Part shown: one piece after another, positions 1,551 to 7,378 of the stretch
Position numbering within the stretch: the first letter of the stretch is position 1
How the letters are laid out: each line of letters begins with the position of its first letter
NCBI RefSeq assembly: GCF_003284725.1
Contig: NZ_PGTO01000002.1
Location: 1 to 64,000, forward strand
DNA: 64,000 bases
Direction: 5' to 3'
Origin: Paramagnetospirillum kuznetsovii
Lineage (GTDB): Bacteria > Pseudomonadota > Alphaproteobacteria > Rhodospirillales > Magnetospirillaceae
Position numbers and translations under genes: made by a program
The notes under the pieces: model-generated
The model's database searches: none
What the model saw: the letters and a program-made list of their open reading frames with translations, nothing else
Told to the model about the DNA's origin: nothing

Positions 1551-3525
<1,975 letters not shown>

Positions 3526-3580
3526 GTGAAACAGTGGGACGCTTGGCCCGTGAAAGTCAAGCTTTGCAAGACCTTACTTT

Positions 3581-4033
3581 TCAGTCGTCTTCGTAGATGC
3601 CCTTTTCCGCCGCCGGGTGGCAGGCGACGCAGTTGGACTTGGTCACCACGCCGGGGCGCTTCCACACCCGCTCGGGCAGATCGTGCTTGCGCTGAAACCA
3701 TGCTGTTTCGGTGATACGCAGCGGCGTGGCGCCCGCCGCTTGGCGCTTCATCACCTTCGATCCCATTCGGCCACCATTGGTATCGGCGGCGCCGTCCATC
3801 AGCACCTTGCGGATCTGGGCCGCCTTGTCGGGCGCCATGGTGGCGTTGTCGCCGAAATGGTCTGCCGGATTGGCCATCATCTTGTCCCAGGATCGGGCGG
3901 GCAGGAAGGAGGGCTGGAAGGCCATATGGCATTCGCCGCAGGCCTTCAGCGTCACGGGATCGGTGATGGGCGGAGCGAAATCGGCCAGGGCGGGCGAAGC
4001 GGCAAGGCAGAAGGCGAGGGCGAACTTCTTCAT
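3581..4033 (-). CDS. Diheme cytochrome c, DHC family
   Basis: A 150-residue exported protein with a Sec signal peptide (MKKFALAFCLAASPALA) and two heme-binding CxxCH motifs: CGECH near residue 33 and CVACH near residue 137. The segment after the first motif (FQPSFLPARSWDKMM, then DHFGDNA) resembles the periplasmic diheme cytochrome DHC that accompanies SHP cytochromes. It sits 11 bases after the b561-SHP gene on the same strand, so it is probably its redox partner. Periplasmic electron transfer is inferred; the terminal acceptor is unknown. Confidence 0.88.
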   Translation of the reverse strand: MKKFALAFCLAASPALADFAPPITDPVTLKACGECHMAFQPSFLPARSWDKMMANPADHFGDNATMAPDKAAQIRKVLMDGAADTNGGRMGSKVMKRQAAGATPLRITETAWFQRKHDLPERVWKRPGVVTKSNCVACHPAAEKGIYEDD

Positions 4034-4044
4034 GATGGCGTTCC

Positions 4045-4863
4045 TTACTTCGCGGCCAGGAAGGTCACGTAATCGCCCTTTTCCAGGGCGGAGCAGGCGC
4101 GTCCCAGCACCGTCTGGCAGTCGCGGGTAAAGCGTTCCTCCACCTTGGCCGCATCGGTGAAGCGCTTGGGATTGGCCGAGACCGCCACCGGCTCGATCAC
4201 CCGTCCGGTCTTGGCGTGCTGGCCGCGCGCGGCGGGGTCGTTGGTGTGGCAGGTGGCGCAGGATGCGAAATCGGGGCTGGCGGTGTTCTTGGACCGATAC
4301 AGAGCCTCGCCCCGCGCCGCCGAGAACGGCTGGCCCGCTTCCTTGGCGTATGCGGCCAGGATGGCGTCGCGGGCGGGGTCGCCCGCCTGGGCCGGTCCCG
4401 CCGCCAGCACGGCGGCGATCAGGGCGGCTCCGCTCAGGAATTCGCGGATGCGCCTGCCCTGGAAGATCCAGGCGATGGTGGCGGCATGGGCGATCACCAG
4501 CCACAGCCCAGCCTGGGCCAGGCCTTCGTGCAGATCCTCGGCCTTGGGGATGCCGTCGGCGATGATGCCCGAAACGGCGCCCAGCGCCAGGGCGGGCAGC
4601 AGCAGCGCCGCCATCCAGGCGAACAGCGGGTTGCGGCCGGGTTTCCCGAACGACAGGCTGGGGCGGCGCAGCCGCAGCGGTCCGGCCTCCGAACCGGCCA
4701 GCGCCAGCAGCAGCCGCGAGGCCAGGGCGCCCAGCACCCAATAGCCCGCGAAGACATGCATGCGGTAGGTATCCTCGTCGGCGGTCACATAGGCCACCAC
4801 GAAGCCGCCCGCCAGGGCCGCGTGCCACAGGCGCAGCAGGGTGAATTCCAGCTTCGGGCTCAT
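4045..4863 (-). CDS. Cytochrome b561-type membrane domain fused to SHP/DUF1924 cytochrome c
   Basis: A 272-residue fusion. Residues about 1-145 form a four-helix b-type cytochrome domain with helix histidines (LWHAALAG, YRMHVFAGYW, EDLHEGLA, VIAHAATIAW). A further hydrophobic stretch ending in GPAQAG follows. The remaining ~115 residues are a DUF1924/SHP domain with CATCH, HTNDP, an Asn in SANPKRF that could be the distal heme ligand known from Rhodobacter SHP, and a two-cysteine loop (RDCQTVLGRAC). SHP, DHC and b561 are usually separate adjacent genes, as I recall; here two are one polypeptide. The start overlaps the stop of the 41-residue gene (ATGA), suggesting coupled translation. Confidence 0.85.
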   Translation of the reverse strand: MSPKLEFTLLRLWHAALAGGFVVAYVTADEDTYRMHVFAGYWVLGALASRLLLALAGSEAGPLRLRRPSLSFGKPGRNPLFAWMAALLLPALALGAVSGIIADGIPKAEDLHEGLAQAGLWLVIAHAATIAWIFQGRRIREFLSGAALIAAVLAAGPAQAGDPARDAILAAYAKEAGQPFSAARGEALYRSKNTASPDFASCATCHTNDPAARGQHAKTGRVIEPVAVSANPKRFTDAAKVEERFTRDCQTVLGRACSALEKGDYVTFLAAK

Positions 4864-4985
4864 GATGCGGCCTCCGAATGGGTGGAGGCCGGGACCGGCG
4901 TCTTGGCGGAAGCGGCATAGCCGAAGGCGAGCACCGCGACGATCACCGTCGCCGCCAGACCCTGTAGTATCATCTTGCCGATCAT
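4860..4985 (-). CDS. 41-residue single-span membrane protein
   Basis: A small gene opening with MIGKMILQGL and ending at TGA, where ATGA overlaps the b561-SHP start. A GGAG ribosome site lies 8 bases before its ATG. Residues about 6-27 form one hydrophobic helix; the tail is short and polar (KTPVPASTHSEAAS). It is the first gene of the cytochrome operon. No family is recognised. It could be a small accessory subunit of the b561 complex or a leader peptide that couples translation. Confidence 0.65.
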   Translation of the reverse strand: MIGKMILQGLAATVIVAVLAFGYAASAKTPVPASTHSEAAS

Positions 4986-5098: not shown

Positions 5099-5386
5099 AT
5101 GAAATACGCCCTTCTCCTTCTGATGCTGGTTGTCGGCCTGCCCGCCCGGGCGCACGACCATGACGACGCCCGCCGGGCGGTGCAGGCGGGCGAGATATTG
5201 CCGCTGTCGGCCATTCTGGAACGGGTCAATGCCGAGTATTCCGGCGATCTGATCGAGGCGGAGCTGGAACGCAAGCACGGACGGCCGGTCTACGAGATCA
5301 AGCTGCTGAGCAAGGACGGCAAGCTGTTGAAGCTGCATTACGACGCTCGTGACGGCAGCGCCCTGCCGGGCAAGGGGCGGCCATGA
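5099..5386 (+). CDS. PepSY-domain periplasmic protein
   Basis: A 95-residue protein with a signal peptide (KYALLLLMLVVGLPARA) and a single PepSY-like fold: a helix around ILPLSAILERVNAEYSGDLIEAELE followed by YEIKLLSKDGKLLKLHYDARDGS. It is the first gene of an operon; its stop overlaps the regulator start (ATGA). PepSY proteins often sit beside OmpR-type two-component systems and may act as periplasmic modulators. Its role here is inferred from context only. Confidence 0.85.
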   Translation: MKYALLLLMLVVGLPARAHDHDDARRAVQAGEILPLSAILERVNAEYSGDLIEAELERKHGRPVYEIKLLSKDGKLLKLHYDARDGSALPGKGRP

Positions 5387-6054
5387 GGCTCCTGGTGGTG
5401 GAGGACGAGCCGCAACTGACCCTGCGTCTGCAACAGGCGCTGGAAGCGGTGGGTTTCGCGGTCGACGTGGCCTATGACGGCGAGGAAGGCCTCTATCTCG
5501 GCGAGACCGAGGCCTATGACGCGGTGGTGCTGGATCTGGGCCTGCCCAAGCTGGACGGCGTCAGCGTGCTGGGCCGCTGGCGCGAAATGGGGCGCGCCAT
5601 GCCGGTGCTGGTGCTGACGGCGCGCAACCGCTGGGCCGACAAATCCGCCGCCTTCGCCGCCGGGGCCGACGACTACGTCACCAAGCCGTTCGAGATGGAC
5701 GAGGTGGTGACCCGCATCCGCGCCCTGATCCGCCGCGCCGCCGGTCACGCCTCGCCGGAGATCACCTGCGGCCCGCTGCGGCTCGACACCATCGGCGGCC
5801 GGGTCAGCCTGGACGGCATGCCGGTGCAATTGACCGCCCAGGAATTCCGCATCCTGTCCTATCTGGCCCATCACCAGGGCCGGGTGGTGGGGCGCGGCGA
5901 GTTGGTGGAGCATGTCTACGACCGCAACGCCGATCCCGATTCCAACGTGCTGGACGTGCTGGTGGCCCGCATCCGCCGCAAGCTGAAGGCGGACCTCATC
6001 CATACGATGCGCGGCCAGGGCTGGCGCATGGAGCCGCCGAATAATGCCGGCTAG
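5383..6054 (+). CDS. OmpR/PhoB-family response regulator
   Basis: A 223-residue two-domain regulator. The N-terminal receiver has the acidic pair in VVEDEP, the phospho-acceptor Asp in VVLDLGLPKLDG and the conserved Lys in VTKPFEMDE. The C-terminal winged helix (LTAQEFRILSYL through VLVARIRRKL and MRGQGWRM) binds DNA. It overlaps both the PepSY gene upstream and the kinase downstream, so the three are one operon. The likely target is the shared intergenic region with the divergent cytochrome operon. Confidence 0.95.
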   Translation: MRLLVVEDEPQLTLRLQQALEAVGFAVDVAYDGEEGLYLGETEAYDAVVLDLGLPKLDGVSVLGRWREMGRAMPVLVLTARNRWADKSAAFAAGADDYVTKPFEMDEVVTRIRALIRRAAGHASPEITCGPLRLDTIGGRVSLDGMPVQLTAQEFRILSYLAHHQGRVVGRGELVEHVYDRNADPDSNVLDVLVARIRRKLKADLIHTMRGQGWRMEPPNNAG

Positions 6055-7378
6055 ATCGCTCCGGCAGCGCCTGATCCTCGGAGCCGGATTGTGGCTGGCC
6101 CTGGCGCTTGGCGTCGGCGGGGTGGTGCTTGGACTGGCCTTCCGCGACGCGGCCGAACACGGCTTCCACGAACGGCTGGATGCCTATTTGCGCGCATTGT
6201 CGGCGGTGGTCGAGATCAATGCCGACGGTTCGGTCGCCGTGGGCAAGCCGGTGGGCGACCCCCGGTTCGAACAGGCCTATTCCGGTTGGTACTGGCAGGT
6301 GTCCGATGGGGCGGAGGTCCGGGCGCGGTCCCGCTCGCTGTGGGATTTCGCCCTGCCGGTGGGCGGGCCCGTCGCCGCCGGGCAGATGCATGCCCGCCGC
6401 GACACGGGGCCGCGTGGCGAAAGCCTCGCGGTGGTGGAGCGCGACCTGCTGTTTCCCGACGGCATCCGGCCGCTGCATCTGAGCGTCGCCGCCAATCGGC
6501 GCGAGGTGGAGGCCGAGGTGGCCCGCTTCGATCTGCTGCTGGCGCTGGCCCTGGGTGGGCTGGGCCTGGGGCTGATCATCGCCATCGCGCTACAGGTGGG
6601 CTATGGCTTGCGGCCGCTGGCGCGTTTGACCGGCGAGTTGGAAGAGGTGCGGGTCTCGGGCGGGCGCATCGGCGAGGCCTATCCCGGCGAGGTGGCGCCA
6701 TTGGTGCTGGCCATGAATCAGGTGCTCGACCATGACGCCCGGCTGATCGAACGGGCCCGTGCCCATGTGGGCAATCTTGCCCATGGGCTGAAGACGCCGC
6801 TGGCGGTGCTGGAAGCGGAACTGGCGAGCCCAAGTCCCGATCATGGGGTGCTGGGCGATCAGCTGGACCGCCTGAACCGGCTGGTGGACATCCATTTGGG
6901 TCGCGCCCGCGCCGAGGCGGTCTCCGCCGAACCGGCCAGGGCCAAGGTCGCGGTGGGCGAGGTGGCCAATGACATCGCCGCCGCGCTTCGGAAAATCTAT
7001 GCCGAGCGGGGGCTGAGCCTTTCGGTGGATTGCGCCCCTGGGGCGCGCTTTCCCGGCAATGGCGACGATCTGGCGGAAATCCTCGGCAATCTGATGGACA
7101 ATGCCTGCAAATGGGCGTCCTCCCAAGTGCGGATCACCGCCGATACCGTCTCCCTCACGGTGGAGGACGACGGCCCCGGCCTGACGCCCGCCCAGGCGGA
7201 AACCGCCACCAGGCGCGGCTTGCGGCTGGATGAATCGGCGCCCGGCTCCGGCCTCGGCCTCGCCATCGTCGCCGATCTGGCGGGAATGATGGGGCTCGAT
7301 GTGCGGTTCGGCCGTTCCGACCTGGGCGGTCTGTGCGTGCGCGTCGCCTTTCCGGCTGCTAGACTCCCCCCGACATAA
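6044..7378 (+). CDS. Sensor histidine kinase, partner of the upstream regulator
   Basis: A 444-residue inner-membrane kinase with two transmembrane helices (about residues 8-30 and 165-188) flanking a ~130-residue periplasmic sensor, then HAMP-like and catalytic domains. The H-box is NLAHGLKTPLAVLE, the N-box EILGNLMDNACKW, and the G-boxes VEDDGPGL and GSGLGLAIV. It starts 11 bases inside the regulator gene with GGAG before the ATG. The architecture resembles PhoQ/QseC-type kinases. The signal is unknown; the neighbouring cytochromes suggest a redox or metal cue. Confidence 0.93.
   Translation: MPARSLRQRLILGAGLWLALALGVGGVVLGLAFRDAAEHGFHERLDAYLRALSAVVEINADGSVAVGKPVGDPRFEQAYSGWYWQVSDGAEVRARSRSLWDFALPVGGPVAAGQMHARRDTGPRGESLAVVERDLLFPDGIRPLHLSVAANRREVEAEVARFDLLLALALGGLGLGLIIAIALQVGYGLRPLARLTGELEEVRVSGGRIGEAYPGEVAPLVLAMNQVLDHDARLIERARAHVGNLAHGLKTPLAVLEAELASPSPDHGVLGDQLDRLNRLVDIHLGRARAEAVSAEPARAKVAVGEVANDIAAALRKIYAERGLSLSVDCAPGARFPGNGDDLAEILGNLMDNACKWASSQVRITADTVSLTVEDDGPGLTPAQAETATRRGLRLDESAPGSGLGLAIVADLAGMMGLDVRFGRSDLGGLCVRVAFPAARLPPT

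Follow-up and report, generated by a model that had tools for sequence, protein, structure and literature searches.

We analyzed a 64,000-nucleotide stretch of DNA from Paramagnetospirillum kuznetsovii (the window), in which one gene joins a b561-like membrane cytochrome (CytB) to the DUF1924 cytochrome SHP. CytB/SHP chimeras are already known from close relatives, and this one most likely encodes a precursor polyprotein that signal peptidase would cut into a membrane-bound CytB and a periplasmic SHP. Judging from the DNA, the gene has both domains, it lies in an SHP-DHC-CytB operon, and it has kept, under constraint, the signal peptide of SHP at the joint.

A membrane cytochrome and SHP in one reading frame

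The fusion gene (4045-4863, minus strand) runs from an ATG at 4863 to a stop at 4045 as a single uninterrupted frame of 272 aa, and the original prediction was right to place a fusion of a b-type cytochrome and a DUF1924/SHP domain here. The SHP domain (4045-4383, minus strand; aa 161-272) is matched by PF09086 (DUF1924) at aa 177-269 with 126.9 bits, above the curated cut-off of 22.5. As a reference for numbering we used the SHP of R. sphaeroides (1dw0), in which N88, W84, C89, and C97 were checked. Its heme-binding CxxCH (C43, C46, and H47) and its disulfide cysteines (C89 and C97) are all aligned with their counterparts in the fusion, which are the CATCH motif at aa 202-206 and C249 and C257.

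The membrane part (4447-4863, minus strand; aa ~1-139) matches PF01292 (prokaryotic b561) at aa 9-132 with 22 bits, which is under the curated cut-off of 30.1, so we call it b561-like. PF01292 is found at E <= 0.01 in 18 of the 22 fused proteins that were scanned, including this one (the best E value is 2.9e-8). Four histidines (H14, H36, H112, and H126) are invariant across the 22 fusions that we aligned, and the predicted structure of this part has four long helices (3-26, 30-56, 79-104, and 106-143). Four helices with four conserved histidines are as expected for two b hemes, and the predicted b561-like part appears to fit this description. A structure prediction had been proposed as a check on the fusion, and it gave the four-helix membrane part followed by the SHP fold in one model (mean pLDDT 83.9, pTM 0.54). 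With this model, Foldseek found 1dw0 (SHP, E 1e-6), cytochrome c'', and then E. coli CybB (5oc0), which is the nearest membrane fold (the Foldseek probability is 0.99, but E is 0.37). No family for the CytB/SHP fusion was found in NCBIfam.

The expected diheme cytochrome is indeed the neighbor. The gene for DHC (diheme cytochrome c; 3581-4033, minus strand; 150 aa) starts 11 nt past the stop of the fusion, and its product matches PF09626 with 129.6 bits as well as 2fwt, 2fw5, and 3u99. The genome has one place that matches PF09086 and one that matches PF09626. The first gene of the cytochrome operon is a 41-aa ORF (4860-4985, minus strand) with a hydrophobic, signal-like N-terminus, and its TGA and the start codon of the fusion overlap in ATGA. 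A profile search found no PepSY match in this ORF.

On the other strand lie genes for a divergent PepSY-domain protein (5099-5386, plus strand; PF03413, 34.5 bits), which sits where Meyer et al. have their divergent Orf1; a response regulator (5383-6054, plus strand; PF00072 and PF00486); and a sensor histidine kinase (6044-7378, plus strand; PF02518), in which the SK1 motifs named in PMC2909971 occur in variant form (RSRSLWD and SGWYWQ). We scanned the neighborhoods of 26 sources (the window and 25 other fused loci, some of them incomplete). Including the window, the PepSY protein was found in 25, the response regulator in 25, the kinase in 20, and DHC in 24, and a short ORF similar to the 41-aa ORF was present in 18. 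In several sources, the short ORF upstream of the fusion has a His-rich or acidic tail. Beyond DHC, the window has a TPP riboswitch (RF00059, 76.9 bits; 3414-3527, minus strand) upstream of thiC (3359-1551), and these are unrelated to the fusion.

A putative signal peptide at the joint

The two domains are separated by a linker (4384-4446, minus strand; aa 140-160, REFLSGAALIAAVLAAGPAQA) that is preceded by GRRI and that looks like a signal peptide. The predicted cut, after Ala160 (AQA|GD), coincides exactly with the mature N-terminus of the R. sphaeroides protein: in the phmmer alignment to 1dw0, residue 161 of the fusion (GD...) stands against residue 1 of the SHP as crystallized.

We scored potential cut sites with a matrix that was trained on homologous signal peptides, namely 100 sites from split SHPs. 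The best site falls in the linker for 28 of 30 fused proteins. For the other two (L008 and L065), another site outscores the linker site, and the linker site leads the next one by 1 bit or less in L011, L037, and L148. The threshold of the matrix was too lax: all 30 linkers passed it, as did 26/30 other regions of the fusions and 120/138 split CytB proteins (in these, the maximum score has a median of 7.3). Because the threshold does not separate the linkers from the controls, we rely on rank and score only. Of the 30 linkers, 25 attain a score of 11, as do 2.3% of 213 CytB windows. With a laxer score, 9.8, the linkers stand out less (27/30 linkers, but also 33% of the CytB windows and 6.7% of shuffled linkers). 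The observed median score is attained by just 0.1% of shuffled linkers.

Alanine is found at -1 in 30/30 linkers and at -3 in 27/30. In the signal peptides of split SHPs, the corresponding counts are 121/122 and 101/122 (7 of the 129 split frames were dropped). Boundaries that are set by the matrix are partly chosen by the -1 and -3 residues themselves, so a second analysis took the first SHP helix, and not AxA, as its anchor. Seven of the 30 fusions could not be anchored; among the other 23, alanine is at -1 in 22 and at -3 in 20. These are the two most conserved columns of the linker, with entropies of 0.26 and 0.68 bits, as compared to 1.2-2.6 bits in the hydrophobic stretch. These columns have alanine in 35/60 and 30/60 split proteins, in which the length of the mature start is more variable. 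The linkers as a whole have diverged (the median ungapped identity across 29 fusions is 0.25). A few boundaries are less certain: the scorer misplaced that of L008, which by eye is VQA|GEV, and the two ways of placing the boundary picked different sites in L012, L094, and L148.

These data are consistent with a polyprotein, as the fusions appear to have an internal signal peptide with a conserved -3/-1 site at the mature N-terminus of SHP. The precursor of cytochrome b/c1 in Bradyrhizobium, known as FbcH, is cut by signal peptidase. Since the -3/-1 site is conserved here, we argue that the signal peptide in the fusion is probably cut too. The motif could instead be merely inherited, with its loss still to come.

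Regarding the topology of the protein, the cut, and the flow of electrons, we infer the following. The membrane cytochrome would insert with its C-terminus in the cytoplasm. The even number of CytB helices and the charged tail GRRIRE suggest a cytoplasmic end, so SHP would need another membrane crossing to reach the periplasm, which is where heme is attached to c-type cytochromes. The former signal peptide of SHP would re-enter the membrane and bring SHP to the periplasm for heme attachment, and signal peptidase I would cut after Ala160. The products would be a separate, quinol-oxidizing CytB and a soluble periplasmic SHP, in a 1:1 ratio, with DHC as the electron shuttle between them. The original prediction was that electrons would pass directly from the membrane to SHP within one polypeptide. 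Given that a conserved signal peptide carrying a signal-peptidase motif forms the joint, we doubt this, and it is probably wrong.

Alternatively, the fusion might stay whole. The linker would then be a fifth membrane helix that tethers SHP, and electrons would pass from the heme of CytB to that of SHP, either directly or via DHC at the membrane surface. The two domains do share one frame, and the linker is hydrophobic: uncharged spans of 16-22 residues are found in 20 of 30 fusions, the span in the window has 19, and such a span could form a fifth membrane helix. Also, the fork of the SHP tree that holds the window is fused in 23 of its 27 rows, and Meyer et al. presumed that a chimeric gene has a chimeric protein as its product (Figure 5 legend, PMC2909971). 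On the other hand, a tether has no need of alanines at -1 and -3 or of the mature N-terminus of SHP, yet these were kept while other linker residues diverged. Nor is the linker modeled as a full helix: there is a helix at 147-153 only, although low confidence is no proof of this (pLDDT is 59 and 47 in blocks of 141-160, and confidence is lowest, below 50, at 155-159). Finally, since DHC is still encoded beside the fusion in most sources, including the window, the separate shuttle has not been replaced. We consider an uncut fusion to be rather unlikely, with perhaps one chance in a handful.

It is much less plausible that SHP is made separately from a start codon within the frame and that the fusion is incidental. 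In 18 of the 30 fused frames, an ATG lies at -40 to -9 relative to the site (in several of these, the site is off by some residues). However, the linker in the window has no ATG in this range, which makes a separate translation of SHP hardly possible there: the only candidates are GTG codons at -38, which is too far from the site, and at -9, which is too close. And even if SHP had its own start, the same signal peptide would still have to be cut.

Recurrence and origin of the fusion

PF09086 is present in 113 of 317 genomes of the order, in 12 of 385 genomes sampled in the class, and in 86 of 398 sampled in the phylum. For the order, there were 118 places, of which part was fetched, and 126 loci yielded 110 distinct SHP frames. 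From the public records, we kept the best 80 of 343 related loci. In total, we read 216 loci with 159 distinct SHP frames. SHP is fused to CytB in 30 of these frames and is split from it in 129, which agrees with the earlier statement that separate genes are the usual state. We do not interpret 30/159 as a frequency because kinship and likeness to the fused proteins decided which loci were read. Of the 30 fused frames, 29 are from the order-level loci, and 21 have a copy among the best 80 of 343 public-record loci.

We counted a frame as fused only if it had a match to the CytB profile in the same frame, because G+C-rich DNA yields long SHP frames without any fusion. A long open frame was rejected as proof of fusion: many SHP frames, of up to 557 aa, have upstream sequence that is out of frame, a start of their own, and a signal peptide of their own. 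Three of nine further long frames that we examined in the phylum sample are fused, and the CytB score is weak (22-23 bits) in two of these. (This count leaves out G1041, a long frame with a weak match of 22.9 bits.) Outside the order, there are fusions in L239 (676-1794, plus strand), L247 (989-2077, minus strand), and L250 (266-1285, plus strand). These have divergent b-type cytochromes, and by eye they end in the AxA-like sites VHA, AWA, and VWA. Another kind of fusion is found in L094 (1649-2791, plus strand), which has a longer b-type cytochrome, a different linker, and an SHP of the W84/N88 class described below.

Split genes overlap by a median of 4 nt, so a single indel could in principle join them, but an error in the reads or the assembly is scarcely credible as the source of the fusion, given 30 distinct fused frames, the copies in public records, and published examples; this also disposes of the frameshift that the original prediction gave as grounds for rejecting the fusion.

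The fusion may have arisen more than once. On a tree of SHP, which was built by a quick method from few columns and has many open forks (L194 was dropped because it lacks CxxCH), the fused label needs seven changes, of which three are forced by starred branches. L094 lies far from the other fusions. As the count of changes is blind to joining versus splitting, the three changes may be one gain and two losses, and so the fusion may after all have a single origin. Still, it should be easy to join CytB and SHP because the split genes typically overlap by 4 nt: CytB is directly upstream of SHP at 118 of the 129 split loci (none was found at the other 11), and the median spacing is -4 nt. A change of frame by which the stop is lost would nearly be enough to join them, and it would leave the signal peptide of SHP in the middle of the chain.

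On the same tree, the SHP of L160, from a record titled Stygiobacter (Ignavibacteriota), groups with Magnetospirillum. This is probably due to contamination of that metagenome-assembled genome.

Two classes of SHP

The asparagine of SANPKRF had been proposed as the distal heme ligand, but it aligns with Thr71 of R. sphaeroides SHP, and we rejected it. In the alignment to 1dw0, the SHP in the window has aspartate at position 88, the ligand position (Asp248), and arginine at position 84. An asparagine is not strictly required: Meyer et al. reported a distal asparagine in 33 of 42 SHPs, aspartate in five, and histidine in four (PMC2909971). They also saw a correlation between positions 84 and 88, and they argued that the substitutions may preclude the binding of O2 (PMC2909971).

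Across 158 rows of our alignment, the two positions are paired without exception: W84 goes with N88 (68/68), and R, Q, or H84 goes with D88 (90/90). The aspartate class, which makes up 90 of the 158 rows here, is a minority in PMC2909971; our sample is centered on this order. Among the 30 fused rows, 29 have D88 and one has N88, while among the 128 split rows, 61 have D88 and 67 have N88. So aspartate is a trait of a wider group of SHPs and not a consequence of the fusion. The pairing marks two classes of SHP that could be tested for O2 binding. Also, in L194 (4354-4932, plus strand), from a record for Roseomonas genomospecies 6, the first heme cysteine of SHP is replaced (RASCH). This is perhaps a single-cysteine heme protein or a dead copy.

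Comparison with known systems

The fusion is not new. Many known fusions of this layout had been named as grounds for rejecting the original prediction, and such fusions exist: besides the 30 fused frames that we found, Meyer, Kyndt and Cusanovich described in 2010 a CytB/SHP chimera with a separate DHC in Rhodospirillum rubrum and Magnetospirillum magnetotacticum, as well as CytB/mDHC chimeras (PMC2909971). The window gene adds one more case to those already in print. Like those chimeras, it has SHP fused to CytB, a separate DHC, and a divergent Orf1-RR-SK1 cluster, and it shares N88D and W84R with the chimera of R. rubrum. It differs from the operon of Meyer et al. in that the cytochrome operon opens with the 41-aa ORF, which lacks a PepSY match, and not with a second Orf1. 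Meyer et al. also proposed that electrons flow from quinol to CytB, DHC, and then SHP (PMC2909971). The fusion fits this pathway and adds no new kind of protein to it.

Instead, the value of our result lies in the conservation of the predicted cut site at the joint. According to the Figure 2 legend of PMC2909971, an alignment with R. rubrum among its sequences shows signal peptides in bold, and the text of the paper contains no word beginning with "cleav" or "processed". Fused frames in such operons need not equal tethered redox partners, and any claim of intramolecular electron transfer should wait until the joint has been inspected for signal-peptidase sites.

Among proteins of known structure, the SHP of R. 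sphaeroides (1dw0) shares with the fusion the SHP fold, the heme cysteines, and the disulfide cysteines, but it is encoded by a separate gene and has Asn88 and Trp84 where the window has aspartate and arginine. The DHC of R. sphaeroides (2fwt) is a homolog of the DHC in the window. E. coli cytochrome b561 CybB, or superoxide oxidase (5oc0), is likewise a four-helix membrane cytochrome, but it is just 16% identical and has no c-type cytochrome fused to it, and we do not mean to imply that the window protein has superoxide oxidase activity.

As for when such operons are expressed, the available text of PMC11267869 reports that in Allochromatium vinosum, genes for DUF1924, diheme cytochrome c, cytochrome B561, and a two-component regulator, which are neighbors by locus number, are among those most induced on pyrite, beside a gene for a ferrous-iron efflux pump. 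This hints at a metal or sulfide signal.

The closest parallel to a cut fusion is cytochrome b/c1 of Bradyrhizobium, where one frame encodes both a cytochrome b of the membrane and a c-type cytochrome of the periplasm, according to the available text of PMC4013037. It belongs to the bc1 complex, and its proteins are unrelated to CytB and SHP. Our literature search on its processing found no statement of the cut: the portions available give the fusion only (PMC4013037) or contain nothing on a cut (PMC8156433). On balance, we favor the view that CytB and SHP were fused, probably several times, from operons with ATGA overlaps; that the former signal peptide of SHP is under selection as an internal, cleavable one; and that, with cytochrome b/c1 as the first, these fusions would be the second family whose membrane cytochrome b is synthesized in a single chain with a periplasmic c-type cytochrome and then separated from it by a cut.
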